IMG/VR virus record: IMGVR_UViG_3300047202_000028
Coordinates: 1-30,458 of that record
Strand: one strand, 5' to 3'
DNA length: 30,458 nucleotides
DNA from: a virus
Shown here piece after piece: positions 11,816 through 30,362 of this stretch. A program made the position numbers and the translations under genes. The stretch's first letter is position 1. Each line of letters starts with the position of its first letter. The notes beneath the pieces are model-generated. The model made no database searches and was not told the origin of the DNA. It saw only the letters and a program-made list of their open reading frames with translations.

Positions 11816-12339
11816 TTTTTTAACGTTCCTTTACATATCCACCAATCTGATATTTCCCAATTCTTCTGCCAATCGTCGTCTTGTTTAATAGTGATTATTT
11901 GCAAGTTATTTTTATTTGCAAATTCTGTTACTGCTTGTTTAACCCCATAATGAGGTTTATTGAAATCGTGCCCTGCAAATATACCATTAACTTTAGGATA
12001 CCAACATTCAAGGTCTTTCTTTACTGCTTCGTATCTGTGGTCGGAATCTATATAAATATAATCAAAAAAACCATCTGGGAAAAGGGTTGATGCTAATTCG
12101 GAAGTAGTGTTAAAAATATGTATCTTATCACCAAAAGGTGCTAATCTATTTAACATATCTTTTTTATAGGTATTCTGTTCTTGTTGAGTGATTTCTTGAT
12201 AAGGCATATAAGAATCAACCAAATATAACTCATTAACTACTTGCACTATTTCAAGGGCATTTTTTCCATCTCTTACACCTATCTCTATTGCTTTGTTAAT
12301 CTTGCCTTTTTCAAGAGCATACTTTAATGAACTCCTCAT
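11812..12339 (-). CDS. SAM-dependent methyltransferase (MT24-like)
   Basis: 175 aa from ATG 12339, chosen because it overlaps the preceding stop as ATGA. A GTG at 12408 would add 23 residues over the upstream gene. Motif I is AIEIGVRDGKNALEI (about 17-31); DYIYIDSDHRYEAVKKDL carries the acidic residues and the DSDH motif typical of methyltransferase family 24. GIFAGHDFNKPHYGVKQAV continues the fold. Such enzymes methylate hydroxyls of sugars or small molecules using S-adenosylmethionine. Placement between another methyltransferase and a glycosyltransferase suggests O-methylation of the glycan. Confidence 0.8.
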   Translation of the reverse strand: MRSSLKYALEKGKINKAIEIGVRDGKNALEIVQVVNELYLVDSYMPYQEITQQEQNTYKKDMLNRLAPFGDKIHIFNTTSELASTLFPDGFFDYIYIDSDHRYEAVKKDLECWYPKVNGIFAGHDFNKPHYGVKQAVTEFANKNNLQIITIKQDDDWQKNWEISDWWICKGTLKK

Positions 12340-12971
12340 TTCTCTAATATCCCCCAAAACGTCCTGTATGGTCGTTCCCACACAATGCACTCGTCGTCTA
12401 TTTCCCACATAATTTTTTTCATATCACCAAACCACTCATTCAATTCTTTTTCTTCTACCCCGTAGAGGTGGTAAACATTTAATTGGTCTCCTGTGCGTAG
12501 GTGGACGTGGATATATAATCTTCCGCCAGTCTTTAATAATCTCTTGTATTCACTTGCTACCCTTGCCGAGTTTTCTGGCTTGAAACAATGGTCTAAGGTG
12601 TTAAGACTGAACACAACATCAGCGTAATTGTCTGGTAATGGGACTCTTTTACCGTCCTCAACTAAATACTTTCCGTCGTAAGACCAAACACCGATTTCTT
12701 TGTATTTGTTTATCAGGGGATCAATAGCTATCTTTTCTTTGGCATCTATCAGGCTCAACACTCCCCCGAAAGCACCGCACCCTATCTCTATAACAACTTT
12801 ATCCTTTGTATCTGGGGTTAATCTCTTTAAATAAATCTGGTAACGGTTCAAACTCTGGTCTTTGTCCTTTTTAGTTTTCCAGTCGTCAAGTATGGCTTCC
12901 ATCCTGATTTCTGGGGAATATTCAATAGTTTCTTTTGTGTCTTTATCGTAAAAATTCTTTACTACAAGCAT
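12336..12971 (-). CDS. SAM-dependent methyltransferase (MT11-like)
   Basis: 211 aa. The SAM-binding motif I is VVIEIGCGAFGGVLSLI (59-75), the acidic end of strand 2 is IAIDPL, and motif II/post-I is DVVFSLNTLDHCFKPENSAR, followed by the RLLKTGGRLYIHVHLR strand typical of class I methyltransferases. The substrate is unknown; a sugar is likely given neighbours. Its start lies within the end of the NodB-like deacetylase gene (10-nt overlap) and its stop overlaps the next methyltransferase gene (ATGA). Confidence 0.8.
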   Translation of the reverse strand: MLVVKNFYDKDTKETIEYSPEIRMEAILDDWKTKKDKDQSLNRYQIYLKRLTPDTKDKVVIEIGCGAFGGVLSLIDAKEKIAIDPLINKYKEIGVWSYDGKYLVEDGKRVPLPDNYADVVFSLNTLDHCFKPENSARVASEYKRLLKTGGRLYIHVHLRTGDQLNVYHLYGVEEKELNEWFGDMKKIMWEIDDECIVWERPYRTFWGILEK

Positions 12972-13435
12972 AGTTTTTTCTCAAGTTGTGTAAACCTATC
13001 TTCGTCTATGAATGTCCACCAATGGAAGTTGTAAACTTCTCCTCCGACCCTATTATCCACTTCAAGACCAAGTTCCCTGCAAACTCCCCCTAAATCATCA
13101 CTGGACTTATTCCAGGGCGGATAATAAACCTTTATTATTTTGGGTTCATATTTACCCCGTTGTATATGAAAATTCCAGTAATCAAGTGATTTTTGTATCG
13201 TATTTCTAATGTGTTCAATAGGTGTGTTGGAAATATCCTCGTGTATCCACCCGTGAAGTCCGATGTCTAAATTAGGTGCAGTCATTAACCAATACCAGAT
13301 AACTTTATTATCCCAAAGTCCTCGCATCTCAACTGAGACCGTGTGTATCTTGTTATATTTTATAAATAAGGAGTGTATTCTTTGGAGTAAATGAATATCG
13401 GTATATCGGTTAATGTCGTCGTCTCGCCACTTCAT
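12962..13435 (-). CDS. NodB-like polysaccharide deacetylase, short
   Basis: 157 aa, shorter than the usual 190-200 aa NodB domain. Metal and catalytic motifs are in order: WRDDDI (Asp5-7, motif 1), GLHGWIHEDIS (His61 and His65, motif 2 HxxxH), VYYPPWNKSSDDL (104-116, motif 3 normally RxPxW or RPPW), and NFHWWTF with His138 (motif 5). This family removes N- or O-acetyl groups from polysaccharides or small sugars with a divalent metal. It overlaps the GT4 gene upstream by 26 nt. The Arg of motif 3 is replaced by Tyr, so activity is likely but not certain. Confidence 0.75.
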   Translation of the reverse strand: MKWRDDDINRYTDIHLLQRIHSLFIKYNKIHTVSVEMRGLWDNKVIWYWLMTAPNLDIGLHGWIHEDISNTPIEHIRNTIQKSLDYWNFHIQRGKYEPKIIKVYYPPWNKSSDDLGGVCRELGLEVDNRVGGEVYNFHWWTFIDEDRFTQLEKKLCL

Positions 13436-14264
13436 CGTATACTTGTGCGTATTGTTTGCTTATTTCGCCCCACCTGTAATTAGTTTCTATAAATTTCCTT
13501 GTCTTGACCTGGTTCTTATTACGGAACTCTCTCAGGGCGTTGTAAAGTGGTTCATATCCGTCATCTATTATGGTTATACCCTGTAAATCCTTCCATATCC
13601 CGCTTCTACGCATAATCACGGGAACATCCATAGCCATCGCCTCTAAAACGACATTTGAACATCCCTCGGTTAGCGAGGGGTGGACGAACACATCCAAAGA
13701 ACGATACCAGTCAGGCATACTATCGTGTGGAATATGGTCTCCTTGGAATGTAAATCTTTCTAATCGTAAACCGAGTTCCTCGCACACTTTGGCTAAATCA
13801 AAAAATCCCTTGTTTTCTGCTGGGTTTCCCACAAACCCCACTACTAATCTTTTGGGTCCCTTGAAGATTTCTAAATCAACCCCATTGGGTATGAATTTAC
13901 AATGGTATTCTTCGGCTATTTTCCTACTTACGGAAGTTACATACGCTACTGATTTAATCAACTTCTCAAGCCTTGGGAGGTCTACTGAATAACCTTGTAA
14001 TAGGGAACGCTCGTTGATTATAGTAAGAACGGTCTTTTTAAAAGCGTCTTTGCGTTCAAGTATCTCGTAATACTGGTCAACCTTTCCAGTATAGTTAAAA
14101 TGTATAATGTCGTATTCGGGAATTAGTTTCTCTATTTGTTCCTGATTTCTTATTCCCCCTACGATGTCAAAATCATATTCTCGGATATGTTTTTTTAACG
14201 CCTTACATCTATTGTATGCTGACCAGTCAATATGAGTATGGTCGGGGATAAGCAATATCTTCAT
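13410..14264 (-). CDS. Glycosyltransferase, GT4 family
   Basis: 284 aa, short for GT4 because the N-terminal half is compact. The C-terminal domain is canonical: FIPNGVDLEIF (125-134), VVGFVGNPAENKGFFDLAKV (141-160) and the E-x7-E motif with Glu200 and Glu208 in LTEGCSNVVLEAMAMDVPVI. This loop holds the nucleotide-sugar. It works in the cytoplasm, making a retained-configuration linkage as known for GT4. It is coupled to the preceding GT gene by ATGA and overlaps the deacetylase gene downstream by 26 nt. Acceptor and donor are unknown. Confidence 0.88.
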   Translation of the reverse strand: MKILLIPDHTHIDWSAYNRCKALKKHIREYDFDIVGGIRNQEQIEKLIPEYDIIHFNYTGKVDQYYEILERKDAFKKTVLTIINERSLLQGYSVDLPRLEKLIKSVAYVTSVSRKIAEEYHCKFIPNGVDLEIFKGPKRLVVGFVGNPAENKGFFDLAKVCEELGLRLERFTFQGDHIPHDSMPDWYRSLDVFVHPSLTEGCSNVVLEAMAMDVPVIMRRSGIWKDLQGITIIDDGYEPLYNALREFRNKNQVKTRKFIETNYRWGEISKQYAQVYDEVARRRH

Positions 14265-15079
14265 TTACATAATTGTTTGAATAGATTAACGTGTTTATCC
14301 CTGAAATTATCCCACTTGAAATTTTCTATGTCTTTAGTCTGTTGGGTTTCTATGGTTTTGAATATCTCCAATGCCCCCTCCAAGTCTTTATAAACCAAAC
14401 AAGGAACCTCTCCCGCATAACCTACATCGGTGGTAATAACTTGTTTCCCGCACGCCTTTACCTCTAACAAAACATAAGGACCGCCCTCCATATCGGAAGT
14501 GATAAGTAAATAATCAATGGAGTGGTAAAAATCAGGCATCCTCTCATATGGTCTATGACCGAGTTTTACAACTTTTGGATGGTTGATAAAAGTTTCTTCC
14601 CACCTATCCCCGCAAATGTAAAATTTAAAAGTATCACTTGTCTTGTTTACGATTTCTTCCAATAACTCTACGTTTTTTCTTTTCTGTAATATGGCGACTA
14701 TGCCTATCTTGATATTCGGCTTGAATACATCACTATCCACAGCCATTGAAATCAATGATTTGTTGGGCTTATCGTATTGGTCGTAATACCTTTTGCTTTG
14801 GAAAACAAGATGGTCAGCATATTTATAGACGTATTCCCAAGTGTCTTGAGGATGGTGCATATGAACTACTTTTATCAGGTTACTTCTTAATGTATCCTGT
14901 TTGAACAAACCTGCGTGTAAGTAATATCCTATATCCCCTAGATAAAACGACTTTGATGGAAGCCTGTAAAGATTGAGAGTAAGATTGGGTTCTTTTATCC
15001 TTAAAAGTTGATTTTCAAACTCCAAGAACCACGTATAATGTGCTTTGCTATCAGTTGAACTGAATACATCTACTATCAC
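14261..15079 (-). CDS. Glycosyltransferase, GT-B fold, GT4-like
   Basis: 272 aa. It starts at a GTG (15079) that overlaps the upstream methyltransferase stop as GTGA; no good alternative ATG is present near the N-terminus. Residues 125-145 (IGIVAILQKRKNVELLEEIV) and 153-180 (FYICGDRWEE..KLGHRPYERM) match the donor domain, and E-x7-E is at Glu198 and Glu206 in DMEGGPYVLLEVKACGKQVI. The N-terminal acceptor domain is reduced to about 110 residues. It is the second of two adjacent GT4-like genes of similar plan (the next is at 13410-14264), which could act one after the other on the same chain. Confidence 0.85.
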   Translation of the reverse strand: MIVDVFSSTDSKAHYTWFLEFENQLLRIKEPNLTLNLYRLPSKSFYLGDIGYYLHAGLFKQDTLRSNLIKVVHMHHPQDTWEYVYKYADHLVFQSKRYYDQYDKPNKSLISMAVDSDVFKPNIKIGIVAILQKRKNVELLEEIVNKTSDTFKFYICGDRWEETFINHPKVVKLGHRPYERMPDFYHSIDYLLITSDMEGGPYVLLEVKACGKQVITTDVGYAGEVPCLVYKDLEGALEIFKTIETQQTKDIENFKWDNFRDKHVNLFKQLCK

Positions 15080-15717
15080 TTTGTTCCCTTAAATGCTATC
15101 CATTGGGGATTTTTATAAACATAACTTGGAGCCTTGGGGTCAAAAGAAAAGTAGATATTTTCAGTTTTTACATCTTTAAAGTGTTTTGATAAGTCTTTCC
15201 TTAGTTGTTTACCATCAAATATCCTCGTATGATAGGCGTGATGTTCTGTGCCTTTCTGAGCGTTTCTACCGTCTGGGTGGGGAACTGAACCTATCACTAA
15301 TCCGCCATTTTTAAGCACCCTCTTGGCTTCACCTAAGACCTTGCTTACATCAAACACGTGTTCTAAAATCTCGGAAAGAATAGCCACATCAAAATATTCA
15401 TCTTTAAAGGGTAAACTCTCCGCCCTTGCTACCTTCGCTATAATCCCCTTCTGGCAAGCCAAGTTTACAAGTTCAGGGTTTACGTCCACACCATAGACGA
15501 TACTGCCCTTCTTGTGCCTTAAAATAGTCCTTTCAAGACCGCCAGAGTTGCATCCTATCCCTATAACTAAGGGTTTGGTATCGGGAATCCAATCCATTAA
15601 CTGTTTTGTTCTCAACCAACCGTTGTGGGTAGGAACGAACTTTCCTTCCCTGTCCGTGTCTATGTGATAACCTTCGTGAGCCTTTACTGCCTCATCTTCT
15701 GAGTTAAATACGGGCAT
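15076..15717 (-). CDS. SAM-dependent methyltransferase (MT11-like)
   Basis: 213 aa. Motif I is LVIGIGCNSGGLERTIL (50-66), followed by VYGVDVNPELVNLA and FDVAILSEILEHVFDV, the classic sequence of a class I methyltransferase. The downstream strand is RVLKNGGLVIGSVPHPDGR. The N-terminus (EDEAVKAHEGYHIDTDREGK) resembles sugar-associated methyltransferases found in phage glycan loci. It overlaps the GT2 gene upstream by 14 nt and the GT gene downstream by 4 nt. It probably methylates a sugar or glycan end; the target is not known. Confidence 0.8.
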   Translation of the reverse strand: MPVFNSEDEAVKAHEGYHIDTDREGKFVPTHNGWLRTKQLMDWIPDTKPLVIGIGCNSGGLERTILRHKKGSIVYGVDVNPELVNLACQKGIIAKVARAESLPFKDEYFDVAILSEILEHVFDVSKVLGEAKRVLKNGGLVIGSVPHPDGRNAQKGTEHHAYHTRIFDGKQLRKDLSKHFKDVKTENIYFSFDPKAPSYVYKNPQWIAFKGTK

Positions 15718-16402
15718 TTATACCAAACTCCTTGTAGATTTTAACCTTTTGCTTTCTGGCTTCGTTTATATCCCTGAACGTATTAAGATGGCTCAAGTCC
15801 ACCTTTGTAAGTAAAATATTGTCTATATACGAAAATTTATATCCCGCCAAAAATAATTCTATGAATAACGCCTCGTATTGGTCAGTATGCTTGCAATCAG
15901 TCCTATACTTATTCTTTAATACAATTTCTTTCCTGTATGCCACCGTAGGGTGGCTTATCCCACGAGGGTAATTCTTGTAATCATAAGGAAAAGCCAACTG
16001 TGTGTGTATGGGACGACCTTGTGAATCTACCAGATTTACCGAGTGATAAAGTAAGTCTGTCTTGGGGTGTTTTTTAAAATACTTATATACTATCTCGGCT
16101 TTGCTACTGTGGTAAATGTCCCCAGCGTCGGTTACACAGATGATGTCGCTTTCAGCACACTTATTCCCCTCATTACGGCACCAAGCACCCCCCATCCATT
16201 CTGTGGTATTAAACACCCTGAATCTATGGTCTCTATATTCATAGAACTTCATCAACTCAAGGGTGCTATCCGTAGAACAATCGTCAAAACAGATAATTTC
16301 TATGTCTTTTAGGGTCTGGTTTTCCAAACTCTTAAAGGTCTGTGCTATGAAAACCCCGCAATTCCTCGCTGGCAATACAAAACTAATCTTCGTCTTTGGC
16401 AT
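15704..16402 (-). CDS. Glycosyltransferase, GT2 family (variant DXD)
   Basis: 232 aa, a single GT-A domain. The donor-binding start is ISFVLPARNCGVFIAQTFKS (6-25), followed by DIEIICFDDCSTDST. The metal site reads ICVTDAGDIYHSS, so the usual D-x-D is D-A-G-D here. That spacing differs from its paralogue at 19438-20178 (VADSDDAY) and may change metal use. HPTVAYRKEIVLKNKYRT matches the paralogue's LTVGYRKEIILKYPY. It is likely a cytoplasmic glycosyltransferase using a nucleotide sugar. It overlaps the ParB-like gene upstream by 20 nt. Confidence 0.82.
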   Translation of the reverse strand: MPKTKISFVLPARNCGVFIAQTFKSLENQTLKDIEIICFDDCSTDSTLELMKFYEYRDHRFRVFNTTEWMGGAWCRNEGNKCAESDIICVTDAGDIYHSSKAEIVYKYFKKHPKTDLLYHSVNLVDSQGRPIHTQLAFPYDYKNYPRGISHPTVAYRKEIVLKNKYRTDCKHTDQYEALFIELFLAGYKFSYIDNILLTKVDLSHLNTFRDINEARKQKVKIYKEFGINARI

Positions 16403-16784
16403 CTATGAATTTAATAGGCATATCTTCTAACTCTAAAATATCGGCAATAGCCATACGGTGATGTCCGTTAAGTATTATCCATTTGTTTAATGGGAGTCCA
16501 TCATCACGCTTTCTCTGAATTGATATTGGAAACTTTAAACCATTTCTCCTTATATCTACATACAATAGACAGAAAGTGATATACTTATCTTTATTCTTTT
16601 TTTGGCAAAATGAACTGTCATCAAGTATCTTTACTGCTTCTTCCCAGTAGTTAAGTTTGGGATTATAAAGGATTTCTTTTAATCTATCCCTTATTTCAAG
16701 CATAGATTTTATTTCTCCAATAGTTTCTCTAATCTTTTCTAAAGACTGTTCACTAAGGTTTTTTTTCAGTTCGCCAATGTTCAT
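16383..16784 (-). CDS. ParB-like nuclease-domain protein
   Basis: 133 aa. The second half (about 84-130) reads FPISIQRKRDDGLPLNKWII then LNGHHRMAIADILELEDMPI, which matches the ParB/sulfiredoxin-like domain, where the G-H-H-R segment is the phosphate-binding motif (GxxR in ParB). The N-terminal 60 residues are helical (LSEQSLEKIRETIGEIKSML). There is no partition-type DNA-binding helix-turn-helix and no ParA neighbour, so a plasmid-partition role is unlikely. Small ParB-like proteins lie in phage glycan loci and may act as nucleotide-dependent switches or kinases. That function is a guess. Confidence 0.7.
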   Translation of the reverse strand: MNIGELKKNLSEQSLEKIRETIGEIKSMLEIRDRLKEILYNPKLNYWEEAVKILDDSSFCQKKNKDKYITFCLLYVDIRRNGLKFPISIQRKRDDGLPLNKWIILNGHHRMAIADILELEDMPIKFIDAKDED

Positions 16785-17211
16785 ATTTTTTAGGATATAA
16801 GTTCGTAAGTGCCTCTAACGTAACGAGGGCAAATTCTTCAAATTCTTCTTTAGTCATATGGAAGCGGTTGTTTCGGTAATGGAAGTGAATCATATCGCCT
16901 TCAAACTGGGGGTCTTGTAGTTCTATCTGGAATAACCCTGCATCGTATTCTGAATTTCTTGGGAGTTCATTAAGCCTATGAAGTAAGGCAAATTCACCTG
17001 GTCCGCACTTTCTCTTACCACCTTCCACCCAAGATTTGTAACTCTGTGCTATGCCCTTACAGAAAATCTCATATTCACCAGTCCCGAATAAAACCCTCAA
17101 GTTCCTTATGTGTAAATGAAATTCTTGTGCTAACTCTGTCTGAAACCAAACTGGTGCTAACTTGGGTTGTCCGATTTCTTTTGTGGCTAAAACCTGTAAA
17201 TTATGTCCCAA
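16753..17211 (-). CDS. Unknown protein in sugar block
   Basis: 152 aa. It begins at a TTG (17211) with AGGAGA 6-7 nt upstream, which fixes this start; it overlaps the formyltransferase end by 11 nt. Notable segments are MIHFHYRNNRFHMTKEEFEE (about 111-130), three histidines near each other then an acidic helix, and FALLHRLNELPR. The pattern HIHYRNLRLEFT/EEFEEFA recurs in small proteins of glycan loci that I have seen without a fixed function. A metal-binding or small-ligand role is possible but not shown. It overlaps the ParB-like gene downstream by 32 nt. Confidence 0.55.
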   Translation of the reverse strand: MGHNLQVLATKEIGQPKLAPVWFQTELAQEFHLHIRNLRVLFGTGEYEIFCKGIAQSYKSWVEGGKRKCGPGEFALLHRLNELPRNSEYDAGLFQIELQDPQFEGDMIHFHYRNNRFHMTKEEFEEFALVTLEALTNLYPKKYEHWRTEKKP

Positions 17212-17848
17212 GTGAAGTCTCCTTTAAATAGATTTTCTTTCCGTCCCCGCAAACGATAAAAGCGTTGGGATATGGGTCATCTAAGGCACGCACAAAGTCG
17301 TGTATCTGTTTGGCAGACCTGAATTGGAAATCGTCGGGTTTGAGTTCACTTTCTTCTGGTGTCCTGCGTTTATAGACAGTCGTCTCTCCTACCTGTGGAG
17401 TTCCTGTAAAGTCGGGATATTGCTGTAAGACATCTTCTATCAAGACAATCCCTTTCTCCACTATCTCCCCGAAAATGTTGTTTAGTTTATTTTTCAGAGA
17501 TATTTCTACTTGTCCCAAGATATTCCCAGCATCTATCTCATCAGTTACACGGAATAAGGTTATCGCACCCTTTTCCTCGCCATTTATTATTTGATGTTGT
17601 AGCGGACTACCACCTCGGTATTTAGGCAAAGGTGAAGGGTGAAGGCACAAGGTCGGGATATAGTTATGAATGGCTTTAGGGACTATCCAAGACCACCCTA
17701 CGAGTAAAATCACATCTGGGTCAAACTCCAGACAATACATATCTAATGTTTCGGGTGTCTTGACTATCTGCTTCTCATAAGGTAAGTGGGAAAACAACCA
17801 TAAAGCCCATTCCCTATACCCGCAACAAAATATCCTTAGTTTATCCAT
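17201..17848 (-). CDS. Formyltransferase-fold protein, sugar N-formyltransferase candidate
   Basis: 215 aa with the Fmt/PurN fold that uses N10-formyl-tetrahydrofolate: VILLVGWSWIVPKAI (46-60), then LCLHPSPLPKYRGGSPLQHQ (67-86) and TLFRVTDEIDAGNILG (97-112). His70 and Asp106 match the catalytic His and Asp. The usual Asn two residues before the His is Cys68. It lacks the C-terminal OB-type tRNA-binding domain of true Fmt in full length, so a tRNA role is unlikely. The adjacent PIG-L deacetylase (13-nt overlap) would supply a free amine, which this enzyme could formylate. I favour an amino-sugar acceptor. Confidence 0.75.
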   Translation of the reverse strand: MDKLRIFCCGYREWALWLFSHLPYEKQIVKTPETLDMYCLEFDPDVILLVGWSWIVPKAIHNYIPTLCLHPSPLPKYRGGSPLQHQIINGEEKGAITLFRVTDEIDAGNILGQVEISLKNKLNNIFGEIVEKGIVLIEDVLQQYPDFTGTPQVGETTVYKRRTPEESELKPDDFQFRSAKQIHDFVRALDDPYPNAFIVCGDGKKIYLKETSLGT

Positions 17849-18426
17849 CTTAATATCTTGAACGCCTCAGCATAATCGTATCCGCTCTGATACCCCCTGA
17901 ATTTAGCCATTAACTTAATCATTTCGGGAGAGCGGTGAGAACGCACCTGCGAAGTGTGTAGTTTGTAACCCTCAATCTTTTTATCTATGTCAAGTTTAAC
18001 AAAGTAATTGGGATTAAATTCTTCCTTATCCCACAAGTTGTGGTGGATTTCTTCATAGACTAAGACCTTCTTGACAAGGAAATTCTTATCGTGGTGCCTT
18101 AAAGCCGTGAAACAAGCCTCATAGACCGTCCTGTGGTCTTGGTTATAGGACGGGTGAGGGATATAGATTTCATCGGGCTTTAGTTTATTTATGAATACTT
18201 GGACAGTATCTAAGATGTTCTGAAATTTGTAATTATCAACAAGATGGTCGCAGATAAAATTGTTATAGTTGAAAAACTGGCGTGCCTTAGTTAACTCACT
18301 TATCCGAGTTTTTTTGTCTACTATATGAAAATCGTTAATACCCAAGAATACGACATAGGCATTGTCTAATACCGAACTGCATCCCAATACTTCATCGTCG
18401 GCGTGAGGCGAAATAATTAGTCTCAT
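17836..18426 (-). CDS. PIG-L/LmbE-family N-deacetylase
   Basis: 196 aa. The zinc site is clear: SPHADDEVLG (His8, Asp10, Asp11, Glu12) and IPHPSYNQDHR (His91, Asn95, Asp97, His98, Arg99). These are the two family motifs; Asp10 is the expected general base and His8, Asp11 and one His of the second motif bind zinc. The family removes acetyl groups from N-acetylglucosamine-type sugars (GlcNAc-PI, mycothiol precursors, glycopeptides). It is coupled by ATGA to the radical SAM gene and overlaps the formyltransferase gene, which suggests a short de-N-acetylation and N-formylation path. Confidence 0.88.
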   Translation of the reverse strand: MRLIISPHADDEVLGCSSVLDNAYVVFLGINDFHIVDKKTRISELTKARQFFNYNNFICDHLVDNYKFQNILDTVQVFINKLKPDEIYIPHPSYNQDHRTVYEACFTALRHHDKNFLVKKVLVYEEIHHNLWDKEEFNPNYFVKLDIDKKIEGYKLHTSQVRSHRSPEMIKLMAKFRGYQSGYDYAEAFKILRWIN

Positions 18427-19457
18427 AAGAAGTTTTTGTGTCCTCGTGAAGATTTCAGATAAGAAAGGACTTCGTTATATTTTGTGTATCGGCAAGGAGG
18501 ACACCTATTCACGTTTATCTTCTTGATTACTTCCTGCCTCTCCTGCCCGTTCCAAATCTCCTTAAAACTATTCCTGAATAAATCTCCAAGACAATACTGA
18601 GGAAGCCCCCTTAATTGGCAACATAAATACATCTTCCCGTTTGCCGCTATCACACCCAAAAGATTATGCCCCATACACTCGTCAAAGTTTTTGTCCTGAA
18701 AGTGGAGTTCCTCAAACCTATGGATTATGGGATAGACCTTAAACTTATCGTCAGTATATTTGGCTATGGAGTCGTGAACTTGCCTACGCATCTCAATTAA
18801 AATCTTTTCAGATAATTCCATTCCCCTCATAAATACTGGTCGTATCTGGATATAAGTCGCACCTGCTTCTTTCACTAAGAAAGTGGCGGAGAAAATCTCA
18901 TCATAATTGTAGGGATGAACTAAGAAAGCCGTTCCTATATCAAGGTCAGGGCTAAGATTACGTAGATACCCTATCCAATTAAGGACTTCTCTTAAAGTAT
19001 TGCGTCTGGGTTTGTGTAACTTAACATAGGTATCTTCTTCTCCCGCATCCAGACTTACTCTTACAAACTGGCAGGTCTTGGTTATCGCCTCACATTTGTC
19101 TTTGTCTAACAGCCCCCCATTAGTAACGAGGGCAACTTCCATACCTTTTTCCCTGACAAAGTGCAAGGCAAGGGCTATATCGGGGTGAGTGAGGGGTTCT
19201 CCCCCGCCTGTAAAAGTTACGGACTTAACCCCTGCCTCTGCAAGTTGACTTATAATATCCAGTAACTTATTAGTCTCTAAGTAACACTTTTCCCTATTCC
19301 TGAACTTACCGCTTATACACCACACGCAAGAATGGTTACAGATATTTGATGGGTCTATCTCACAGGAAATTGGATAGACTGTTTCACCCTTGGCTATTTT
19401 GACCAGTGTTTCGGGGTGATTTAAAATCTTGTAAGGACTAAATATCTTTGAGTTCAC
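18423..19457 (-). CDS. Radical SAM/SPASM-domain enzyme
   Basis: 344 aa. The 4Fe-4S cluster motif is C-x3-C-x2-C at Cys40, Cys44 and Cys47 (NICNHSCVWC), followed by FTGGGEPLTHPDI (82-94), the SAM-amine 'GGE' motif. The C-terminal cysteines at 261, 279, 280, 289, 319 and 322 form a SPASM-type auxiliary cluster region. Enzymes of this class oxidise, epimerise or rearrange sugars and peptides. Because it lies among glycosyltransferases, a sugar substrate is most likely. The start is a GTG with GGAG 7 nt upstream, inside the end of the GT2 gene (20-nt overlap). A peptide substrate gene is not visible nearby. Confidence 0.88.
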   Translation of the reverse strand: MNSKIFSPYKILNHPETLVKIAKGETVYPISCEIDPSNICNHSCVWCISGKFRNREKCYLETNKLLDIISQLAEAGVKSVTFTGGGEPLTHPDIALALHFVREKGMEVALVTNGGLLDKDKCEAITKTCQFVRVSLDAGEEDTYVKLHKPRRNTLREVLNWIGYLRNLSPDLDIGTAFLVHPYNYDEIFSATFLVKEAGATYIQIRPVFMRGMELSEKILIEMRRQVHDSIAKYTDDKFKVYPIIHRFEELHFQDKNFDECMGHNLLGVIAANGKMYLCCQLRGLPQYCLGDLFRNSFKEIWNGQERQEVIKKINVNRCPPCRYTKYNEVLSYLKSSRGHKNFL

Positions 19458-20178
19458 CCATCAACTCCATCTTCTTCTGTTTCTTGTCGTGCAAATACTG
19501 TTTAAATTTTTCGTCGTGCCCGTTATTGTAGGCATTGTTATAAACCCTATATACCGATATTGGTTCTGTGGTGAAGCAACTCTTTACCTTTGCCTTTATA
19601 AGCAGGTTGTATAACATCCCCCAATCTCCTACGCCCGCCTCCGAATTGTAAGGGTATTTGAGGATGATTTCTTTACGGTATCCAACCGTAAGATGACCAA
19701 TATAGAAAAACCCTTCCTCTTTAAGTCGTCTTTTTGAAAACTTCGTAGCGAGCAGGTAGTTTGGTATCCCTCGTTCAAATTCCCCAAATCTATTTCGTTG
19801 GTAATAGGAACCGTAAAACAAACCACATTCCTTTTCTTTGGTAAGGTATTCATAAGTAAGTTCAGCCCTCTTGGGCATATAGGCATCATCACTATCTGCC
19901 ACGCATATTATTTCTGATTGTGCTTCTTTATTTCCGATATTCCTTGTTCGGTCAATCCTCTCCGCAACCGCCAAATCACACGGTTCAAGGTAGATTTTCC
20001 TAACCCGCTTGTCTTTATTGCAGAAATATTCAATAATATCCCGTGAATCGTCGGTAGAATCGTCGTCAACTACGATAAGTTCAATGTCTTTTAGTGTCTG
20101 GGTCAATACCGTTGTAATCGCCAAAGAAATATAAGACGACTTATTCCTGTTTGGCATCACAAAAGTTACTAATGGCAT
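19438..20178 (-). CDS. Glycosyltransferase, GT2 family
   Basis: 246 aa, one GT-A domain: VTFVMPNRNKSSYISLAITT (4-23), ELIVVDDDSTDDSRDII (33-49), and the metal-binding VADSDDAYMPK, then HLTVGYRKEIILKYPY and GDWGMLYNLLIKAK where the acceptor-side acidic residue lies. It has no membrane helices, so it acts in the cytoplasm. It is clearly related to the gene at 15704-16402 (shared LKDIE, IICV..D, GYRKEI(I/V)LK blocks), so the block holds an old duplication. Its ATG shares a TAATG overlap with the 101-aa gene upstream. Confidence 0.87.
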   Translation of the reverse strand: MPLVTFVMPNRNKSSYISLAITTVLTQTLKDIELIVVDDDSTDDSRDIIEYFCNKDKRVRKIYLEPCDLAVAERIDRTRNIGNKEAQSEIICVADSDDAYMPKRAELTYEYLTKEKECGLFYGSYYQRNRFGEFERGIPNYLLATKFSKRRLKEEGFFYIGHLTVGYRKEIILKYPYNSEAGVGDWGMLYNLLIKAKVKSCFTTEPISVYRVYNNAYNNGHDEKFKQYLHDKKQKKMELMGELKDI

Positions 20179-20483
20179 TATTGTTGTTTTTCTTCTACCT
20201 TTTTAAGTATTTCTTCGGGAGTCATCTCATCGGGAGTTTTATCGGTTGCCCCCGCTTCCCTGATTTCAAGGTTAAAAAAATGGTGTTTCTTTCCCCCACC
20301 TATATCTCTTTCAGTTATTCCCACAACCCTAACGACTATATTCATACTAAATATCTCATTGATATTTTTAGTCCGTAAATCCCTTACCATATCAGAGGAT
20401 ATTTCTACTTCTGGATATTTGTCTTCAACCTTATTTTGGTAGGGGCTATCTAAAATCCTTTGTTTTATTGCAGTAGAATCCAT
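20178..20483 (-). CDS. Small protein of unknown function
   Basis: 101 aa. Residues 45-75 read as strands (FSMNIVVRVVGITERDIGGG then KHHFFNLEIREA), the rest is charged, and the C-terminal tail is acidic and helical (TPDEMTPEEILKKVEEKQQ). No motif for an enzyme is seen. It sits between a secreted small protein and a GT2 gene, with 10-nt and TAATG junctions. A virion accessory role is as likely as a sugar-related one. Confidence 0.5.
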   Translation of the reverse strand: MDSTAIKQRILDSPYQNKVEDKYPEVEISSDMVRDLRTKNINEIFSMNIVVRVVGITERDIGGGKKHHFFNLEIREAGATDKTPDEMTPEEILKKVEEKQQ

Positions 20484-20493
20484 ATTTTCTCCT

Positions 20494-20820
20494 TTACCTT
20501 GTTACTTCCCACACCCTAATTTCTGTTGTTCCTGTGGCAACAATTCCATAAATGGGGTCGCTCTTATCCTCAAATTTCCCATACATAGCGGGTGGAAAAG
20601 GCAAACCGACAGTTGTATTCACTGTTGGACTAAAACCAAGATAGGCAGTTGTAGTCCCATTGTTATAAAGCACGCACTTACGCCTATTTGTGTCCCTTGG
20701 TAATATCTCGGTAGTGGTATTAGTTGCTGTTACTGATTTTACGGAATCGGAAGCAAACAGAATACTCGTAAAAAACAATAAACCTAAACCTATAATTACA
20801 ATCCCTATTCTTTCTTTCAT
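20494..20820 (-). CDS. Small secreted beta-rich protein
   Basis: 108 aa. The N-terminus is a Sec-type signal peptide (MKERIGIVIIGLGLLFFTSI, then LFA before SDSVK). The mature part of about 84 aa is Thr-rich and strand-forming: SVTATNTTTEILPRDTNRRK, CVLYNNGTTTAYLGF, then TTGTTEIRVWEV-type strands. This resembles the small 'NNG..ayLG' beta-sandwich proteins that phages use as capsid decoration or fibre modules. A signal peptide makes direct capsid use odd. It overlaps the end of the 532-aa glycosyltransferase by 4 nt. Confidence 0.55.
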   Translation of the reverse strand: MKERIGIVIIGLGLLFFTSILFASDSVKSVTATNTTTEILPRDTNRRKCVLYNNGTTTAYLGFSPTVNTTVGLPFPPAMYGKFEDKSDPIYGIVATGTTEIRVWEVTR

Positions 20821-22415
20821 TTTTCCTCACTGTCTTTAAAAATAAACTCTTTCCCCTTATCCAGAATGGTGTAGATTATATTTTTGTAATTACCTTTATC
20901 TAAAATCTGTTTGTAATAGACCCTCCCAGCTTCTATATGTTCTGGTTTGGGGTTTTTCTTTACTTCACGTATCTTTTCTATCAATTCAATCTTTGACTTG
21001 CCATAGTCGTCTTTGTCCACACTTAACTTTATATATTCCATATGGGGCATTTCAAAATTAGTGATTACCTGCCTACCGCCCAAAAGGAAATGAATAGGTG
21101 TATGAGGAAAACCATCGTGAACGCTTATCCTAACGTTTATGGAACATAATTTGATGGCTTCTCTTATGTTAATAAATGGCAAGTATTCTATGTTTTCTTC
21201 CTTTGCCTTTTTCCCGCCACCAAAAAACTTAAAATCAACATCAGGCATTGACTTGGCTATATCTAAGAGAAAATCCTCATTGTGCATAAGGTTTGTATCA
21301 GAGTAATAAATCCCAACCGTAAACTTTTCGGGTAATGGTATATCTTCTGGAATTTCCTCGCAAAGAGGCATATATACTTTGTGTGCCTTAATCCCTAACT
21401 CTCCAAGTTCCTTCTCTAAAAATTCAGAATTACATAATTGAACGTCTATATGGCTAAGAACCTTATCTCGCATATATTTGAGTGTTTCCCAGTTAAATCC
21501 CGTCCTTAACTGATAAACGTCAGTTCCTATCCACTGGACTACCTTTAAACAATCTTTAGGGGCGTTCTGGAATATTTTGGCGTGGTTTTGGACAGCCAGA
21601 GGATAAAACCCCATTATGTAAATCATCTTGTATTTGTGTTCAAACATAGAAGGCATCTGGACTAATGTAGTCCCTTGGTGTGCCCCTATATAATCTGCAC
21701 CCAGAATCTTAGCTCTTTGTATTGACTGATAAGGTGCTCCAAGTGAAGAAACACAAATTGGTCTTTCCTTGACATTATTCAATAGTTTTATACGGGAAAC
21801 TTTCTCCAGATATGTAGCACCCTTTTTCCCGCTTATGCTGTTATCATCTGTGGGTTCTGTCATAAAGACATAATCCTGCAAGTAAAAACCCTTGTATCCC
21901 TCTTTGGTAATCCTCAAAAACAAATCCCAGTCTTGGAAGTATTCAAGGTTCTCGTCAAATCTGGGGAATATCTCACGTTTCATAGGAGACATCGTAGAGA
22001 TATAATTTGCCGAGTTTAATAAATAAGAGTCAAACGGTCTTGAGGGAAAGACGTTTAAACTTTCTACGTTCCACCGATAGCCAGAATAAACAAAAGAACA
22101 ATCAGGATTATCTTCAAATGAATCCTTGATTAACCTGAGCATACCTGGAAGTAAGATACAGTCAGCGTCAAAGAAAAAGACTATCTCCCCAGTGGATTTA
22201 TCAAATCCATAGTTGCGTTTAGCCGAGGCACCCTCTTGCTCAATCTCATAATAAAGAACATTTAATTCCTCACAAATCTTCCTACCTTCTTCGTTTTCCT
22301 TGCTTACTACAATAATCTCTCGGTCTGTGAAATCTTGTTCTTGGATTGAAACTATACATCTTTTAAGAAACGTATTATCCTTTTTGTGTAAAGGAATAAT
22401 TATGGAAAATCTCAT
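20817..22415 (-). CDS. Two-domain glycosyltransferase (GT-A plus GT-B)
   Basis: 532 aa. Residues 1-210 are a GT2-type GT-A domain: FSIIIPLHKKDNTFLKRCIV, EIIVVSKENEEG, the D-A-D metal motif at 83-85 (VFFFDADCILLP) and EYFQDWDLFLRI at 158-169. Residues 218-525 form a second, GT-B-like domain: QWIGTDVYQLRTGF, VQLCNSEFLEKELGEL, FTVGIYYSDTNLMHN and FGGGKKAKEENIEYLPFI, ending in a helix. Such fusions let one protein make two linkages in turn. The start has GGAGGT 3 nt upstream of a TAATG overlap with the gene before it. The C-terminal E-x7-E is not clear, so the second domain could be inactive or a different GT-B family. Confidence 0.85.
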   Translation of the reverse strand: MRFSIIIPLHKKDNTFLKRCIVSIQEQDFTDREIIVVSKENEEGRKICEELNVLYYEIEQEGASAKRNYGFDKSTGEIVFFFDADCILLPGMLRLIKDSFEDNPDCSFVYSGYRWNVESLNVFPSRPFDSYLLNSANYISTMSPMKREIFPRFDENLEYFQDWDLFLRITKEGYKGFYLQDYVFMTEPTDDNSISGKKGATYLEKVSRIKLLNNVKERPICVSSLGAPYQSIQRAKILGADYIGAHQGTTLVQMPSMFEHKYKMIYIMGFYPLAVQNHAKIFQNAPKDCLKVVQWIGTDVYQLRTGFNWETLKYMRDKVLSHIDVQLCNSEFLEKELGELGIKAHKVYMPLCEEIPEDIPLPEKFTVGIYYSDTNLMHNEDFLLDIAKSMPDVDFKFFGGGKKAKEENIEYLPFINIREAIKLCSINVRISVHDGFPHTPIHFLLGGRQVITNFEMPHMEYIKLSVDKDDYGKSKIELIEKIREVKKNPKPEHIEAGRVYYKQILDKGNYKNIIYTILDKGKEFIFKDSEEK

Positions 22416-23055: not shown

Positions 23056-24804
23056 TTACATTGTCCCGTTGTTAACCAATATAACACCAGCAGATTTATT
23101 CAAAATCTTTGCAGCCATCGTGATTTTGAAACCTACTGATGCAGCCTGGTTAATTGGGTCAGCAGTTCCAGCAGAGCCGAGTTGTTTGACGAACATCTCA
23201 TAACCCTTCTGTTTATTACCCTGACCAGATATTTCAGTAACTCCGTATGCGTGAGGACCAAATATAATCGTCCCATACACAGTTCCTGAGTTAGTCTGCA
23301 TCGTGTCAGCAGTAATAGCGTAAGAAGGAGCATAAGTTGATTCAACGAACCTGACTCCACCTACCTGCCCGATTTCACCTTTATACATCAATTCAGGTGA
23401 ACTGTATTTCTGCCATCCTTTCCATCCAGAAGCGGTCATAATTGAATACGCCATCTTCGGGTGGATAATACCAACATATAAACCATCATCAAACGGGTCT
23501 ACATTGTTGTTTCTTAACCACATAGCAGCGTGTTGAACCTGCTTCACGGTCAAACCTGAAGTGGTCATACTCGCTACGGTGGAAGAAGTTGCTAACCTGG
23601 CGTTGTTATGAAGTAGGGCAAAACCTTCTTGGTTTGAAGCACCTAAATCAATACTGCCAGAGTAGCATCTCACGTTCTTGCCAGTTGCCAGTAAAGCACT
23701 GGTTAAAGCAGACCTTGCGGCTGCTGTTTTAACGTGGAAACCAATCTGTGAGTGAATATACGTGTCTACTGTCGCAGCAGCTTTTTCACCCATCAATGTT
23801 GCGGCATCTTCAAGTAAGGGGTCAATCGCTGTCATTATCAGTAAATCAGAAACTCTTGCATAAGCACCTCTCTGAATCAAGGTGGCACTTAACGTGGAAG
23901 CCGACAGGATTACCTGTGCGGGAACCGTCAATTCGGTCATATTGGTTGTTACCGCAGATTGGGTAGCGAACCTATACCATTGAACAGTTTTCCCACTTTG
24001 TGCGGGTAGAGGTTTTTTATCGCCGAACTCATAAAATCTGAGTTTCGGTAACATTCTCTCTAAGCCTACTTTTTCATAGTCAGTATTGTTGCTCGTTCTT
24101 AAAGAACGGGATTGAGCATTTCTGTCAATCTCTGGATGTTTCCATCCAGCTCAGACCATATCTTCATTTCCTCAAAAGGAAAGGTCGGCGTATGGTCGTT
24201 GAAGTTACTGTTCTTTATTCCTAATTTGATTTCTTTAAGTTCTTGCAACATATCCAATTCATCCAGTTTGTAAGATTTGTTATTGGTATTGGATTTATTG
24301 CTAATCCTACTTTTAGTGAATTTTAAAACAATTTCAGCTTGTTCTTTTTTTTCACCAACCATAAAAGGTATTAGTAATTCTAAAAACCTTTCTACTCGTT
24401 TATGACCAGCGATTGTAATATCCCAACAACGTCTATTCTCTTTTTGTCTTTTTTTAATCCCAAGATGATAAGCAAGACCTAAAGATTTTAGGATTACTAC
24501 ACAAGCATTTATTATCTTTTCATCACTATTAGTAATTGAAACTCTTGGGGTATGGATTCGGTAAGTATCGGATATATTGTTATTCATCCCTACACTACCT
24601 TCACCCTCAAAAATTCCAGTCAACCAAGAAATATTAAAGAGCAGTCTTACTTGCTGATTGTCCATTGTAATATCCTTTCGGTTTTCGCATAATTAGCACG
24701 ATTGGTTTTAGGAGTTTCCAGCATATAGCCAACTTTTCACCCAATTTTATTTAGGTGATAATCAGCGTGCTTAAACCAGCACCTGATGTTCTTTGTCCAG
24801 CCAT
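23056..24804 (-). CDS. Major capsid protein, N4-gp56-like, split by an intron
   Basis: Join of exon 1 (24804-24753, 52 nt) and exon 2 (24080-23056, 1025 nt) gives 1077 nt, 358 aa plus stop. Spliced, the N-terminus reads MAGQRTSGAGLSTLIIT, then YYEKVGLERMLPKLRFYEFG and DKKPLPAQSGKTVQWYRF, the run known from N4-gp56 family capsid proteins (...YYxKxxLERALPxLxFxxFGxKRPLPxxSGKT...). The rest keeps the family plan (QRGAYARVSDLLIM, GEIGQVGGVRFVEST). Unspliced, only a shortened ORF from ATG 24054 exists, without the conserved N-arm. Exon 1 begins directly after the scaffold stop. As the most abundant virion protein, it depends on efficient splicing. Confidence 0.85.
24081..24752 (-). other. Group I intron (672 nt) in the capsid gene
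   Basis: Hand-drawn core: P1 is exon UCACCU (24758-24753) with GGGUGA (24742-24737), giving the required U-G pair at the splice site. P3 is GUUGGC (24733-24728) with GCCGAC (24189-24184). P4 is UGCUG (24723-24719) with CAGCA (24656-24652). P6a is CUGCUCUU (24644-24637) with AAGAACAG (24215-24208), 7 of 8 paired. P7 is GACCAUA (24197-24191) with UAUGGUC (24160-24154). P8 is a 6-bp hairpin at 24182-24167, P9 a 7-bp stem with GAAA loop at 24149-24132, and a further hairpin lies at 24108-24094. The intron ends in G at 24081. The context GCUGGAAACUCC matches the family's P/P4 region. The 3' site was chosen by capsid frame and homology pattern; P10 is weak. Confidence 0.85.
24099..24665 (-). CDS. 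LAGLIDADG homing endonuclease inside the intron
   Basis: 188 aa with one LAGLIDADG-type motif, WLTGIFEGEGSVGM (14-27), where Glu20 or Glu22 would be the metal ligand. It then has CVVILKSLGLAYHLGIKKRQ and AGHKRVERFLELLIPFM, the usual saddle-strand regions of the LAGLIDADG_1 family. With a single motif it should act as a homodimer, cutting an intronless capsid gene to spread the intron. AAAGGA lies 9 nt before the ATG. The first codons form the 3' strand of P4 and the last 40 or so codons encode P7, P8, P9 and half of the last hairpin, so protein and ribozyme share bases. Confidence 0.88.
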   Translation of the reverse strand: MDNQQVRLLFNISWLTGIFEGEGSVGMNNNISDTYRIHTPRVSITNSDEKIINACVVILKSLGLAYHLGIKKRQKENRRCWDITIAGHKRVERFLELLIPFMVGEKKEQAEIVLKFTKSRISNKSNTNNKSYKLDELDMLQELKEIKLGIKNSNFNDHTPTFPFEEMKIWSELDGNIQRLTEMLNPVL

Positions 24805-26315: not shown

Positions 26316-28217
26316 TTAACCTCCTGGTATCATACTTCCCGCACCAGACCTTACTTGGTTCATTCCCATACCCTGACCAGTCATCTGGTTTATAACACTT
26401 GAAATATCAATTGGAGATGCCCCACCTCCGCCACCACCTTGGGCTTTTGCTTGCATCATCATTTGTTGCATCTGTTGGGCTTTTTGTATTTCCGCCCTTA
26501 ATATCTTTTCAACATCTTCTCGGTCCTCAAAACCTAACGCCTCATATAACTTCATCCAGAACTTCACGTAAAGTTCCCCTGGGGGAAGTCCTGAAGTTCC
26601 AAGTGCCTCAATGACCCGTGAGATGTTCATAACTTTCATCTGTTGGTCTAAAGCGTAGCGTGAACCTTTTGCCCGAAACTCGTAATCTCCAGCGATAAGT
26701 TCGGGAGTATAGACTTGGGGTTTTCCCTCGGTGTCAAAGATTTTGTATCCTGGGGTCAAGAATTGTAGGTTTAATTCGTAATACTTCTCCCACACGGGTT
26801 CAAGGACCATCTTCTCAACGAAGTTCAAATTCAACTTAATTTTCTCGTGAGCCATACTCTGGAGTAACATAAGCCCAGATGAGGTCCTGTGGACATCTGC
26901 TCCACCAGCTCCTGGTTGGAGGGATTTTACCGCCCCAGTTACTTCCTCTATGCCGTTAGTAAGTACTTGTGCCTCCACCATCGCCCCTGCGGTAACATCT
27001 GGACACACATCCCACTCTTTTGCGTTAATCCCACCTGGTCTTAGACGTAACCTTGCTCCAGGTTTTCTTTCAAACATATTTATAATCTTGGGGTCAATAG
27101 CACCTTCCTCAAACATAAACACTGGCTGTAAGACTTGGTTGATGTTATCAATCCTCTGGTTACGTTTATCATTTAGTTCTTCCTGCATACACTCGGCTAA
27201 CTCTGGAACTCCGATACCATAAAACTCTCCGAGAATAGGAAGCCATACGCCTTTGACATAAAGACTCTCAACATTCCAATAAGGAAATGCCTCATCCCTT
27301 ACAACGATTTCTCGGTTGGCTATCGTTAATAACCAAGGTTCCATCTTGTCGGTCTTTTCGTTATACCAAGTTGTTTCGCACTCTAAGAGTTCAACATAAC
27401 CCGATAAGTCTTTAGCACGTTCTTTTTTTAAAGTTGCCGATGCCTCAAATGAGGGTTCGGTAATCCCTAAACTCTGGAGACGTGAATGAGGAAATTCATC
27501 GGGAGACGGAAAAGATGTTCCCACGACTTTTTCTTTGTTTACGTAATTCTTGCCTTTCCTGAAATCATCTACTGACTTAACTGACCTGAATACCCTCGCC
27601 CCGTCAGTTATATTCACCGCTTTTGCTTCGGGGTAAAAATCAAACAAGTCAACCACCTCAAACACTGGTCCGTCATACTTGACGATTTCTTTAGGGACTT
27701 TCTTGTAACCAGTGAGGACTTTCTCAATAATCTGTTGGGGGTCGCCAGTCTTGACTGCACCCTGGACTTCTTTGGAGACGTTCTCCACAATCTTTTCTAA
27801 AGTAAAACGGGTCTTTGACTTTACCTGCCAACTGACCTTCCCAATGGACGTTCCCCTTACAAGCAACTGGATACAGAACAAAACATATTGGGTAAAGAAG
27901 TCAGACCGATACATCTGGGAACGTATCAGATTAGAAACATTCTTGTTTGAGGGGACTACATCAAAACTGGGGTCAACGGCGAAAGTGTTATTGATTACCC
28001 TCGCTAATAAAGTCATTACCGATTTATAAGTTTCGGGGATGAATAAATTGGACATCCAATCGTATTTCTTAGTCCCTGGGACGGAGAAAAACAAATCATC
28101 CCAGTCAGTGAATTTCTCCCTCATCTTGGAATAGTAATCCCTACTCTCGGTATATTTGTCTATGACAAACCTTACCTTCGGGTCGTTGGGTTCTTTTGGT
28201 TCTTTCTTCTTCGGCAT
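26316..28217 (-). CDS. Portal protein
   Basis: 633 aa. The N-terminal region (VRFVIDKYTESRDYYSKMRE then DDLFFSVPGTKKYDWMSNLF) is the pattern of P22/T7-like portal proteins. The helical centre has GIGVPELAECMQEELNDKRN (about 334-353) and NQVLQPVFMFEEGAID, the long helix region of portals. The C-terminus is Gln/Met/Gly-rich (QQMQQMMMQAKAQGGGGGG), which probably forms a flexible barrel tail. Twelve copies form the DNA channel at one capsid vertex. Its ATG shares a TAATG overlap with the 51-aa gene. Confidence 0.88.
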   Translation of the reverse strand: MPKKKEPKEPNDPKVRFVIDKYTESRDYYSKMREKFTDWDDLFFSVPGTKKYDWMSNLFIPETYKSVMTLLARVINNTFAVDPSFDVVPSNKNVSNLIRSQMYRSDFFTQYVLFCIQLLVRGTSIGKVSWQVKSKTRFTLEKIVENVSKEVQGAVKTGDPQQIIEKVLTGYKKVPKEIVKYDGPVFEVVDLFDFYPEAKAVNITDGARVFRSVKSVDDFRKGKNYVNKEKVVGTSFPSPDEFPHSRLQSLGITEPSFEASATLKKERAKDLSGYVELLECETTWYNEKTDKMEPWLLTIANREIVVRDEAFPYWNVESLYVKGVWLPILGEFYGIGVPELAECMQEELNDKRNQRIDNINQVLQPVFMFEEGAIDPKIINMFERKPGARLRLRPGGINAKEWDVCPDVTAGAMVEAQVLTNGIEEVTGAVKSLQPGAGGADVHRTSSGLMLLQSMAHEKIKLNLNFVEKMVLEPVWEKYYELNLQFLTPGYKIFDTEGKPQVYTPELIAGDYEFRAKGSRYALDQQMKVMNISRVIEALGTSGLPPGELYVKFWMKLYEALGFEDREDVEKILRAEIQKAQQMQQMMMQAKAQGGGGGGASPIDISSVINQMTGQGMGMNQVRSGAGSMIPGG

Positions 28218-28373: not shown

Positions 28374-28877
28374 TTATCTCCTTGTAAGCATATGACAATT
28401 TATACAAAGCGTTATTCCGTTTTGTATATCAAATCTTAAATCTGGATAATCCTTAAAAGATTTTATGTGATGAACCTCTATCTTAATGTTTTTCTGTCCA
28501 CACCTTTTACAAGTCCATCTATCCCTAATCAGAATAGTTCTCCGCCAATTATCATATGCAGGAGAATTTCTAATTTTGATACATTCTTGACTTATTCCAC
28601 CCTTCCAACGAGGATTCTTACTTCCAGTGATATGGGGGTTCTTTTTACCTTTCCAATAACAATTAGACTTTTGTCCCTTTTTATAAAAGAATGGTTTTAA
28701 TCTTTCTCTTGTTTCTTCTTTCCATTCTTTAGTGTGTTGTTTTCCAAAGAAATGATTTTTCTCCCCAATCTTAGCTAAACTTAATTTAGGGTAATGTTTT
28801 CCTAATCTCGTTAATCTAATCTTTTGGCGAGTTTCTTCTGTTCTTGGAGACCCCACGTGGGGGTGTGGATTACCCAT
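28374..28877 (-). CDS. HNH homing endonuclease with NUMOD3-like repeats
   Basis: 167 aa from ATG 28877, which overlaps the terL stop by 8 nt. A longer reading to 28934 uses GTG and enters terL further. The first half has NUMOD3-type DNA-binding repeats (RKIRLTRLGKHYPKLSLAKI-like segments, then HFFGKQHTKE, KNPRWKGG). The second half is the HNH nuclease: CKRCG, then IEVHHIKSFKDYP with the two His, FDIQNGITLCINCH with the Asn and the second zinc Cys pair. No intron signs are seen around it, so it looks like a free-standing homing gene between terL and the small 51-aa gene. Confidence 0.85.
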   Translation of the reverse strand: MGNPHPHVGSPRTEETRQKIRLTRLGKHYPKLSLAKIGEKNHFFGKQHTKEWKEETRERLKPFFYKKGQKSNCYWKGKKNPHITGSKNPRWKGGISQECIKIRNSPAYDNWRRTILIRDRWTCKRCGQKNIKIEVHHIKSFKDYPDLRFDIQNGITLCINCHMLTRR

Positions 28878-30276
28878 ATTTTGTCCACTTTCTGCTGGAT
28901 TTTTTTTCCTGGATGTAGGCATCACCATATCCACCAGTATAAATTGGGTCTGAAGCCGCTATATACCTAAAGGCATCGCACAAGTGGTCCATTACTTTTT
29001 TAGGATGTTCCTTGACGTTCTTATCGTCCTGATGATATAAATACGTGTCCCACCTATACCTCGTTAATTCTTTAATTGTCGCCATACAGTCATCAAAGAT
29101 ATATAATTTAGGTTTATTGGTTTTATCGTTAATCTTTAGTAATGACTTGACTTTATTGATTCCAAACGATACGTCGTTATTGGCGGGTTTGGTATAAATC
29201 CCGAAACGTGAATACTCGTCCCTTAAAGACTTGAGTTCAGGATGTGCTGGATTTCTATTACACGCAGAGGGGTCAATAAAGGTGCAAGTGATTTCATCCA
29301 GACCTGTCCGAATCTTAATATTCTTGGCATTGTCCTCTACGTTGGTGTCTACCTGATACATCTCATCATAAATATAGTGGTCGTTGTCAGGAGAGACCGC
29401 CCACCAGATGACTGCGGTTGGATTGTTAATCCCAGGGTCTACCCCTCTGAACTTCGTCCAGTCAGTAGGTATGTTGAAACGCTTGACTACGTGTGTTTGG
29501 CGGTCAAACTCCTTGTAAACGAGTCCAGCGAACTCCACGAACTTGCCTTTTAAACGTGCTTCTTTTTCCTCGTCATAAAACGACTTCTCTAATTTAGCTA
29601 ATTCATCCCTATCAATATAAGGATTCTCGTAAGTAGACATTAGGAAACACTCTATGTCTGGGTTTTCTCCAAGAGTCCATGGTTCATAGAGCTCATCATA
29701 AACCCACGACATCCCATGAAGCGGAGTCTCGGTCAGAATTATCGTCCCTTTAGTGTCTACTATCCTCATCCGACACTCCTGCCAGACAGAGTATTCGGGT
29801 TCCTCGTCAAACCAGATAAAATGCTTCTTGGTCCCCTGGAATTTCTCCCAACCAGAGTCTACTGACTTAAAACCTATGGTAGAACCATTAGTCAGTTCAG
29901 CGACCTTATCGGTCTCGTGCCAGTCTTTTAAGTAACGGTCTCCAATCAGTTTCCTGAATAAGGGTTGGGTGATGTCCCTTGAAGCTGGGAAGTCAAGAGA
30001 AACAACCCAAATATCTACTGGAGGTTTAGGGGTCTCCCTTAATGGATGAGTCCCAGTTGCCCACCAGATGACTTCCTGTGCCCCTGCGGTAGTTTTACCA
30101 GAGCGGTTGCCACCGAAAAGCCCTTTTATGCGGGCAGAGGATTTGTGGAAACGCCTGGTAGTGTCATTTATGGGTTTATAAGTCAAGAACGGAGTTCTCT
30201 CAAGTTTATCCAAAAAATATAGTTTAGTCTGTTTGTCTCCTTTTACTAAAGTGTCTATGTATTCGTTAATATCCAT
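28870..30276 (-). CDS. terL: Terminase large subunit
   Basis: 468 aa. The ATPase has Walker A GGNRSGKTT (55-63) and Walker B HFIWFDEEP with Asp157-Glu158 (152-160), then the coupling motif ILTETPLHG (180-188). The RNase H-like nuclease domain has Asp280 in RGVDPGINNPTAV, Asp335 in FIDPSAC and Asp430/Asp434 in VMDHLCDAFRYIA. It packages DNA into the prohead and cuts it, docking at the portal. ATG 30276 is the first possible start because an in-frame TAA lies just upstream. It has no Shine-Dalgarno site, and the CIRCE-like element stands 3 nt before it. The small terminase is not in the window. Confidence 0.93.
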   Translation of the reverse strand: MDINEYIDTLVKGDKQTKLYFLDKLERTPFLTYKPINDTTRRFHKSSARIKGLFGGNRSGKTTAGAQEVIWWATGTHPLRETPKPPVDIWVVSLDFPASRDITQPLFRKLIGDRYLKDWHETDKVAELTNGSTIGFKSVDSGWEKFQGTKKHFIWFDEEPEYSVWQECRMRIVDTKGTIILTETPLHGMSWVYDELYEPWTLGENPDIECFLMSTYENPYIDRDELAKLEKSFYDEEKEARLKGKFVEFAGLVYKEFDRQTHVVKRFNIPTDWTKFRGVDPGINNPTAVIWWAVSPDNDHYIYDEMYQVDTNVEDNAKNIKIRTGLDEITCTFIDPSACNRNPAHPELKSLRDEYSRFGIYTKPANNDVSFGINKVKSLLKINDKTNKPKLYIFDDCMATIKELTRYRWDTYLYHQDDKNVKEHPKKVMDHLCDAFRYIAASDPIYTGGYGDAYIQEKKSSRKWTKYG

Positions 30277-30279
30277 AGT

Positions 30280-30306
30280 TTAGCAGTCTGGCAGAGAGAG
30301 TGCTAA
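30280..30306. promoter_or_regulatory. CIRCE-like HrcA operator in front of terL
   Basis: Plus strand: TTAGCAGTC, 9 nt, GAGTGCTAA. On the terL strand: TTAGCACTC-N9-GACTGCTAA. The CIRCE consensus is TTAGCACTC-N9-GAGTGCTAA, so 17 of 18 arm bases match with exactly the right 9-nt spacer. CIRCE is the binding site of the HrcA repressor that controls groESL and dnaK in many bacteria. It ends 3 nt before the terL ATG. No other copy is seen in the window, and no hrcA gene is present. A convincing -35/-10 pair for terL was not found. Confidence 0.75.
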
Positions 30307-30362
30307 TAGCCTTTATTTGCGATTTAAGGGGCATTTAAGACAAGATAAGTGAGGAAGTGTAG

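Follow-up and report, generated by a model that had tools for sequence, protein, structure and literature searches.

The activity of the repressor HrcA depends on the chaperonin GroEL. For chlamydiae this dependence is supported by published work (PMC12038028). The operator of HrcA is the CIRCE element, a class I inverted repeat (TTAGCACTC-N9-GAGTGCTAA) whose consensus and usual place at the groE and dnaK operons have been described (PMC3842655, PMC545781). The HrcA/CIRCE system is widespread, yet absent from some gamma-proteobacteria (PMC545781). In Lactobacillus plantarum, predicted HrcA sites are also found before non-chaperone genes, but most of these showed no significant change upon deletion of hrcA (PMC3842655), which is a warning against inferring function from a sequence match alone. 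In the open-access literature we found no paper joining the CIRCE element, phage and terminase; nor did we find CIRCE described as a phage late-gene operator, judged mostly by titles and abstracts.

Here we analyzed a CIRCE-like repeat on the complete linear virus record IMGVR_UViG_3300047202_000028, which belongs to an uncultured phage and comprises 30,458 bases (the window, analyzed over its whole length). The repeat is located on the minus strand at 30280..30306, directly before the terminase gene terL. In terL orientation the order is TTAGCACTC-TCTCTGCCA-GACTGCTAA-ACT-ATG, and the plus strand of the repeat reads TTAGCAGTC TGGCAGAGA GAGTGCTAA. The promoter-side arm TTAGCACTC (30298..30306, minus strand) is perfect and the spacer (30289-30297) has the exact CIRCE length of 9 nt. 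The gene-side arm GACTGCTAA (30280..30288, minus strand) carries one substitution at 30286, where the plus strand has G in place of the consensus C; this is the sole departure from CIRCE. The match of 17 out of 18 arm positions with exact spacer, as given in a preliminary description, was thus reproduced with identical coordinates. When scanning the window for CIRCE with up to three mismatches we found this site as the single match, while shuffled sequences gave 0.01 on average. With at most one mismatch, the expected number of copies per window is 2.6e-5 for independent bases and 1.5e-5 under a first-order Markov model, figures that apply to a single window and a single motif and are to be read against a scan considering many windows and motif types. 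The earlier estimate of about 2 in 100,000 per window was right, since it agrees with the recomputed range of 1.5-2.6e-5. Two other explanations of the sequence were rejected. An intrinsic terminator would consist of a G+C-rich hairpin and a T run, and the repeat is not among the terminator-like sites of the window. The arm GACTGCTAA resembles the anticodon loop of tRNA-Ser; the window contains no tRNA gene, however, and none overlaps the virus-contig sites described below.

The identification of the neighboring gene as a phage terminase is borne out by matches to PHROG 2 (E 2.7e-38) and Pfam PF03237. terL (28870..30276, minus strand) codes for a large subunit of 468 aa and is followed on the minus strand by a gene for an HNH homing endonuclease, the portal gene (26316..28217, minus strand; PHROG 332/1216) and further on the major capsid gene (23056..24054, minus strand; PHROG 1357), the latter two belonging to the same gene run downstream of terL. 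Genes for LAGLIDADG and NUMOD3/HNH homing endonucleases at 24099-24665 and 28374-28934 adjoin the capsid and terminase genes. A large block with genes of the glycosyltransferase, methyltransferase, radical SAM/SPASM, formyltransferase and PIG-L deacetylase kinds occupies 10754-22415 within the phage structural region.

The start of terL is supported by the related phage L278, whose TerL is 80% identical from residue 1. An alternative, longer start placing the repeat inside the gene was rejected because of this conservation and because of an in-frame stop just upstream of terL, formed by the TAA of the right arm (30280-30282 of the plus strand). The repeat also lies within a putative 22-codon ORF (MPLKSQIKAISTLSARLLNYGY; 30266..30334, minus strand) that overlaps the start of terL by 11 nt. 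In its arm bases, spacer length and position at a gene start the site resembles the HrcA operator. It differs in its gene, a phage terminase being neither chaperone nor heat-shock regulator, and in its arrangement. A CIRCE is expected to lie in the leader, between the promoter and the ribosome-binding site. Here only the 3 nt ACT (30277..30279, minus strand) separate repeat and start codon; there is no Shine-Dalgarno sequence between them, and no sigma-70-like promoter was found on the terL strand, with the reservation that the promoter type of phage and host may be a different one. Many other genes in the window do have a Shine-Dalgarno sequence; terL of L278 likewise has none.

Looking for the repeat before terL in relatives had been proposed as a check in the preliminary description, which named its absence from close relatives as a refuting outcome; this outcome was obtained. 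Close relatives were found by a scan with the capsid protein, the closest one with an intact terL start being L278 (44,422 bases). It shares most of the window at 70–77% DNA identity, with 80% identity for TerL and 83% for the capsid protein. Throughout the 44.4-kb record of L278 no CIRCE with up to three mismatches was found, and 19 related records contained no CIRCE-type site. TerL as a single query retrieved no relatives from the virus and genome collections; more distant TerL relatives were found by a search with a two-sequence alignment, and about 40 distant terL leaders contained no CIRCE either. Conservation before orthologous genes, as expected of a CIRCE, was absent in all three sets. 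As the closest related phage does not have the site, a role in the control of packaging is unproven.

In L278 a 162-aa ORF overlaps terL in the same manner as the 22-codon ORF of the window, so that coding sequence runs into terL, and further upstream are an epimerase gene and a gene for a small HTH protein looking like terS. This places terL inside a gene run, and an operator at terL would therefore sit within that run. Also in L283 (TerL 50% identical) the upstream reading frame continues into terL. In the window the 180 nt upstream of terL cannot be aligned to L278 and the overlapping 162-aa gene is missing, from which it follows that the repeat lies in lineage-specific sequence. Such a pattern could be left behind if non-homologous DNA, carrying the end of a CIRCE-controlled promoter from a chaperone region of host or phage, was joined upstream of terL. 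The repeat would then be a relic that may still bind HrcA, with no selected control of packaging. That phages do carry CIRCE-controlled Hsp20 and GroES genes speaks for this course of events; yet the 152 nt available upstream of the repeat, up to the contig end, show no sign of either a chaperone gene or a CIRCE promoter, and we consider it quite unlikely.

We then consider the substituted form of the repeat itself. A scan of bacterial and archaeal genomes for the exact variant TTAGCACTC-N9-GACTGCTAA yielded at least 115 stretches, and about 100 of the 115 matches listed have a heat-shock gene as neighbor (groES/groEL, hrcA, rpoH, htpG, hsp20, clp, dnaK). A pattern-based sort assigned 89 of these 115 matches: groES 28, groEL 16, hrcA 15, rpoH 10, htpG 7, hsp20 7, clp 5 and dnaK 1. 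Reading the remaining listed matches by eye added about a dozen more (hrcA, hsp20, rpoH, groES, ftsH). Among the matches listed the distance between repeat and gene start, with starts called mechanically, is mostly 10–90 nt; distances of 3–9 nt were also seen, chiefly at hrcA. The frequent location beside heat-shock genes indicates that the single substitution is compatible with a working CIRCE. It also bears out the earlier assignment of the window repeat as a CIRCE-type sequence, since these copies have identical arms including the substitution.

In virus contigs the exact 27-mer of the window gave no match. A pattern allowing G or C at the substituted position was found in at least 119 stretches and two control patterns with the same arm dinucleotides in none, an enrichment for which the collection size is approximate and which includes many related contigs, some of them possibly bacterial. 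The matches listed comprise 52 perfect and 72 variant sites, which fall into 49 clusters of similar sequence. Clusters bearing the variant were noncoding in about 23 cases and coding in 4 among the matches listed, the former number including L016 and L120, which in fact overlap short coding sequence. Since phage genomes consist mostly of coding sequence, the noncoding copies are mostly not due to chance. CIRCE-type sites occur on virus contigs more frequently than by chance and are often located away from chaperone genes, a result that stands even if the copy in the window is idle.

Among the virus-contig sets are genes for phage Hsp20 and GroES as well as one irrelevant coding family. On phage-type contigs a perfect CIRCE precedes Hsp20 genes in L003, L031, L065, L067, L074, L076, L087 and L114. 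Like the repeat in the window these sites are directly upstream of a gene on a phage-type contig; unlike it they belong to a gene for a small heat-shock protein, are perfect and recur across related contigs. Perfect copies were also seen beside Hsp90/HtpG genes on phage-type contigs (L058, L088). Tandem CIRCE arrays of 2–4 copies occur in intergenic regions of L069 (5424-5548; G005 17792-17965), L077, L098, L117 and L021. The genes next to the arrays had no Pfam or PHROG match where tested, and the array in G005 has a spacing of 49 bases.

Another group of sites belongs to an actinophage-like family, in which the variant TTAGCACTC-N9-GACTGCTAA with variable spacer is adjacent to GTTTAAAC repeats and accompanies non-chaperone genes (L007, L010, L013, L018, L022, L028, L032, L043, L051, L064, L078, L080, L095, L102, L105 and L115; L029, L040, L066, L083 and L090). 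That several phage families, such as this one, keep the asymmetric variant at non-chaperone places would fit an operator bound by some other regulator, perhaps encoded by the phage, with a site similar to CIRCE. Alternatively the repeat could act as a hairpin in translation control, and its arms do pair in the centroid structure of the folded RNA. However, HrcA sites beside the heat-shock genes of bacteria have the same arms and spacer length, and we identified no gene for a repressor in the window. The C-C mismatch weakens the pairing and the minimum-energy fold does not contain the hairpin; with an ordinary fold of the region (z -0.45) a stable RNA hairpin is not supported. We regard a different regulator or a hairpin as the least probable of the explanations considered.

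A tangible possibility is that the repeat is a look-alike without function, which arose by chance in a rapidly evolving leader or a short segment of coding sequence and was singled out by screening many windows and motifs. A large scan should turn up events with a frequency of 1e-5 at some place. The repeat is conserved in no relative, lacks a Shine-Dalgarno or promoter arrangement and lies in a region of ordinary RNA folding, and most of the L. plantarum sites mentioned above, which lie before non-chaperone genes, gave no significant response to the deletion of hrcA. L016 and L120 carry the same arms near terL as well; because these repeats overlap short coding sequence, we rejected them as independent cases of CIRCE before terL. 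Against a chance origin stand the noncoding copies of the exact variant in virus contigs, which are far above chance, and the position of the window copy at a gene start.

Overall, the base rates in virus contigs, the location in noncoding sequence where a gene begins, and the fact that the variant occurs naturally indicate that the repeat is probably a genuine, lineage-specific CIRCE-type sequence. We lean towards an operator of the CIRCE or HrcA type that would have arisen or been acquired recently in this lineage just before terL, an explanation to which we give more weight than to any other, if somewhat short of even confidence. That the repeat also works on terL is less likely than that it is a genuine operator. 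The preliminary description had suggested that the site controls terL and couples packaging to stress. This is not supported by our analysis: the site is absent in relatives, its cramped position leaves no room for a ribosome-binding site, no promoter is recognizable and terL is probably internal to an operon. The link between packaging and stress is undemonstrated, and the repeat may be a recently acquired working site at terL.

The data establish the sequence, its position, the presence of the same variant at heat-shock genes of bacteria and the enrichment of such sites in virus contigs, whereas an HrcA in the host, its binding to the repeat and any effect on terL are inferred. In principle the repeat could bind the HrcA repressor of the host. 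HrcA on the repeat would lower transcription of terL and the genes downstream, in the manner of a roadblock or of a leader operator. Once GroEL is occupied by unfolded protein, be it upon heat or during folding of the capsid, HrcA would lose activity and the block would be lifted. If HrcA does bind, the phage would read the level of free chaperonin in its host to time DNA packaging, and capsid folding would be linked to packaging without a sensor made by the phage.

A second late gene with a CIRCE directly in front was found in an unrelated phage. L116 (record G032, 15,247 bases) carries a perfect CIRCE at 6412-6438, located 18 nt before a major-tail gene (PHROG 807), which is followed by genes for a tail protein and the tape measure. 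No other CIRCE is present in this 15.2-kb record. As in the window the element lies directly before a late structural phage gene; unlike in the window the repeat is perfect and a ribosome-binding site (AAGGAAT) is located between it and the ATG. It is conceivable, if unlikely, that several phage lineages have recruited the HrcA/CIRCE system of their hosts for non-chaperone genes, including packaging in the window and the tail in L116, so that late functions would be set free once folding capsid or tail proteins saturate GroEL. As a candidate for a late-gene CIRCE, the site in L116 is superior to the terL site of the window.
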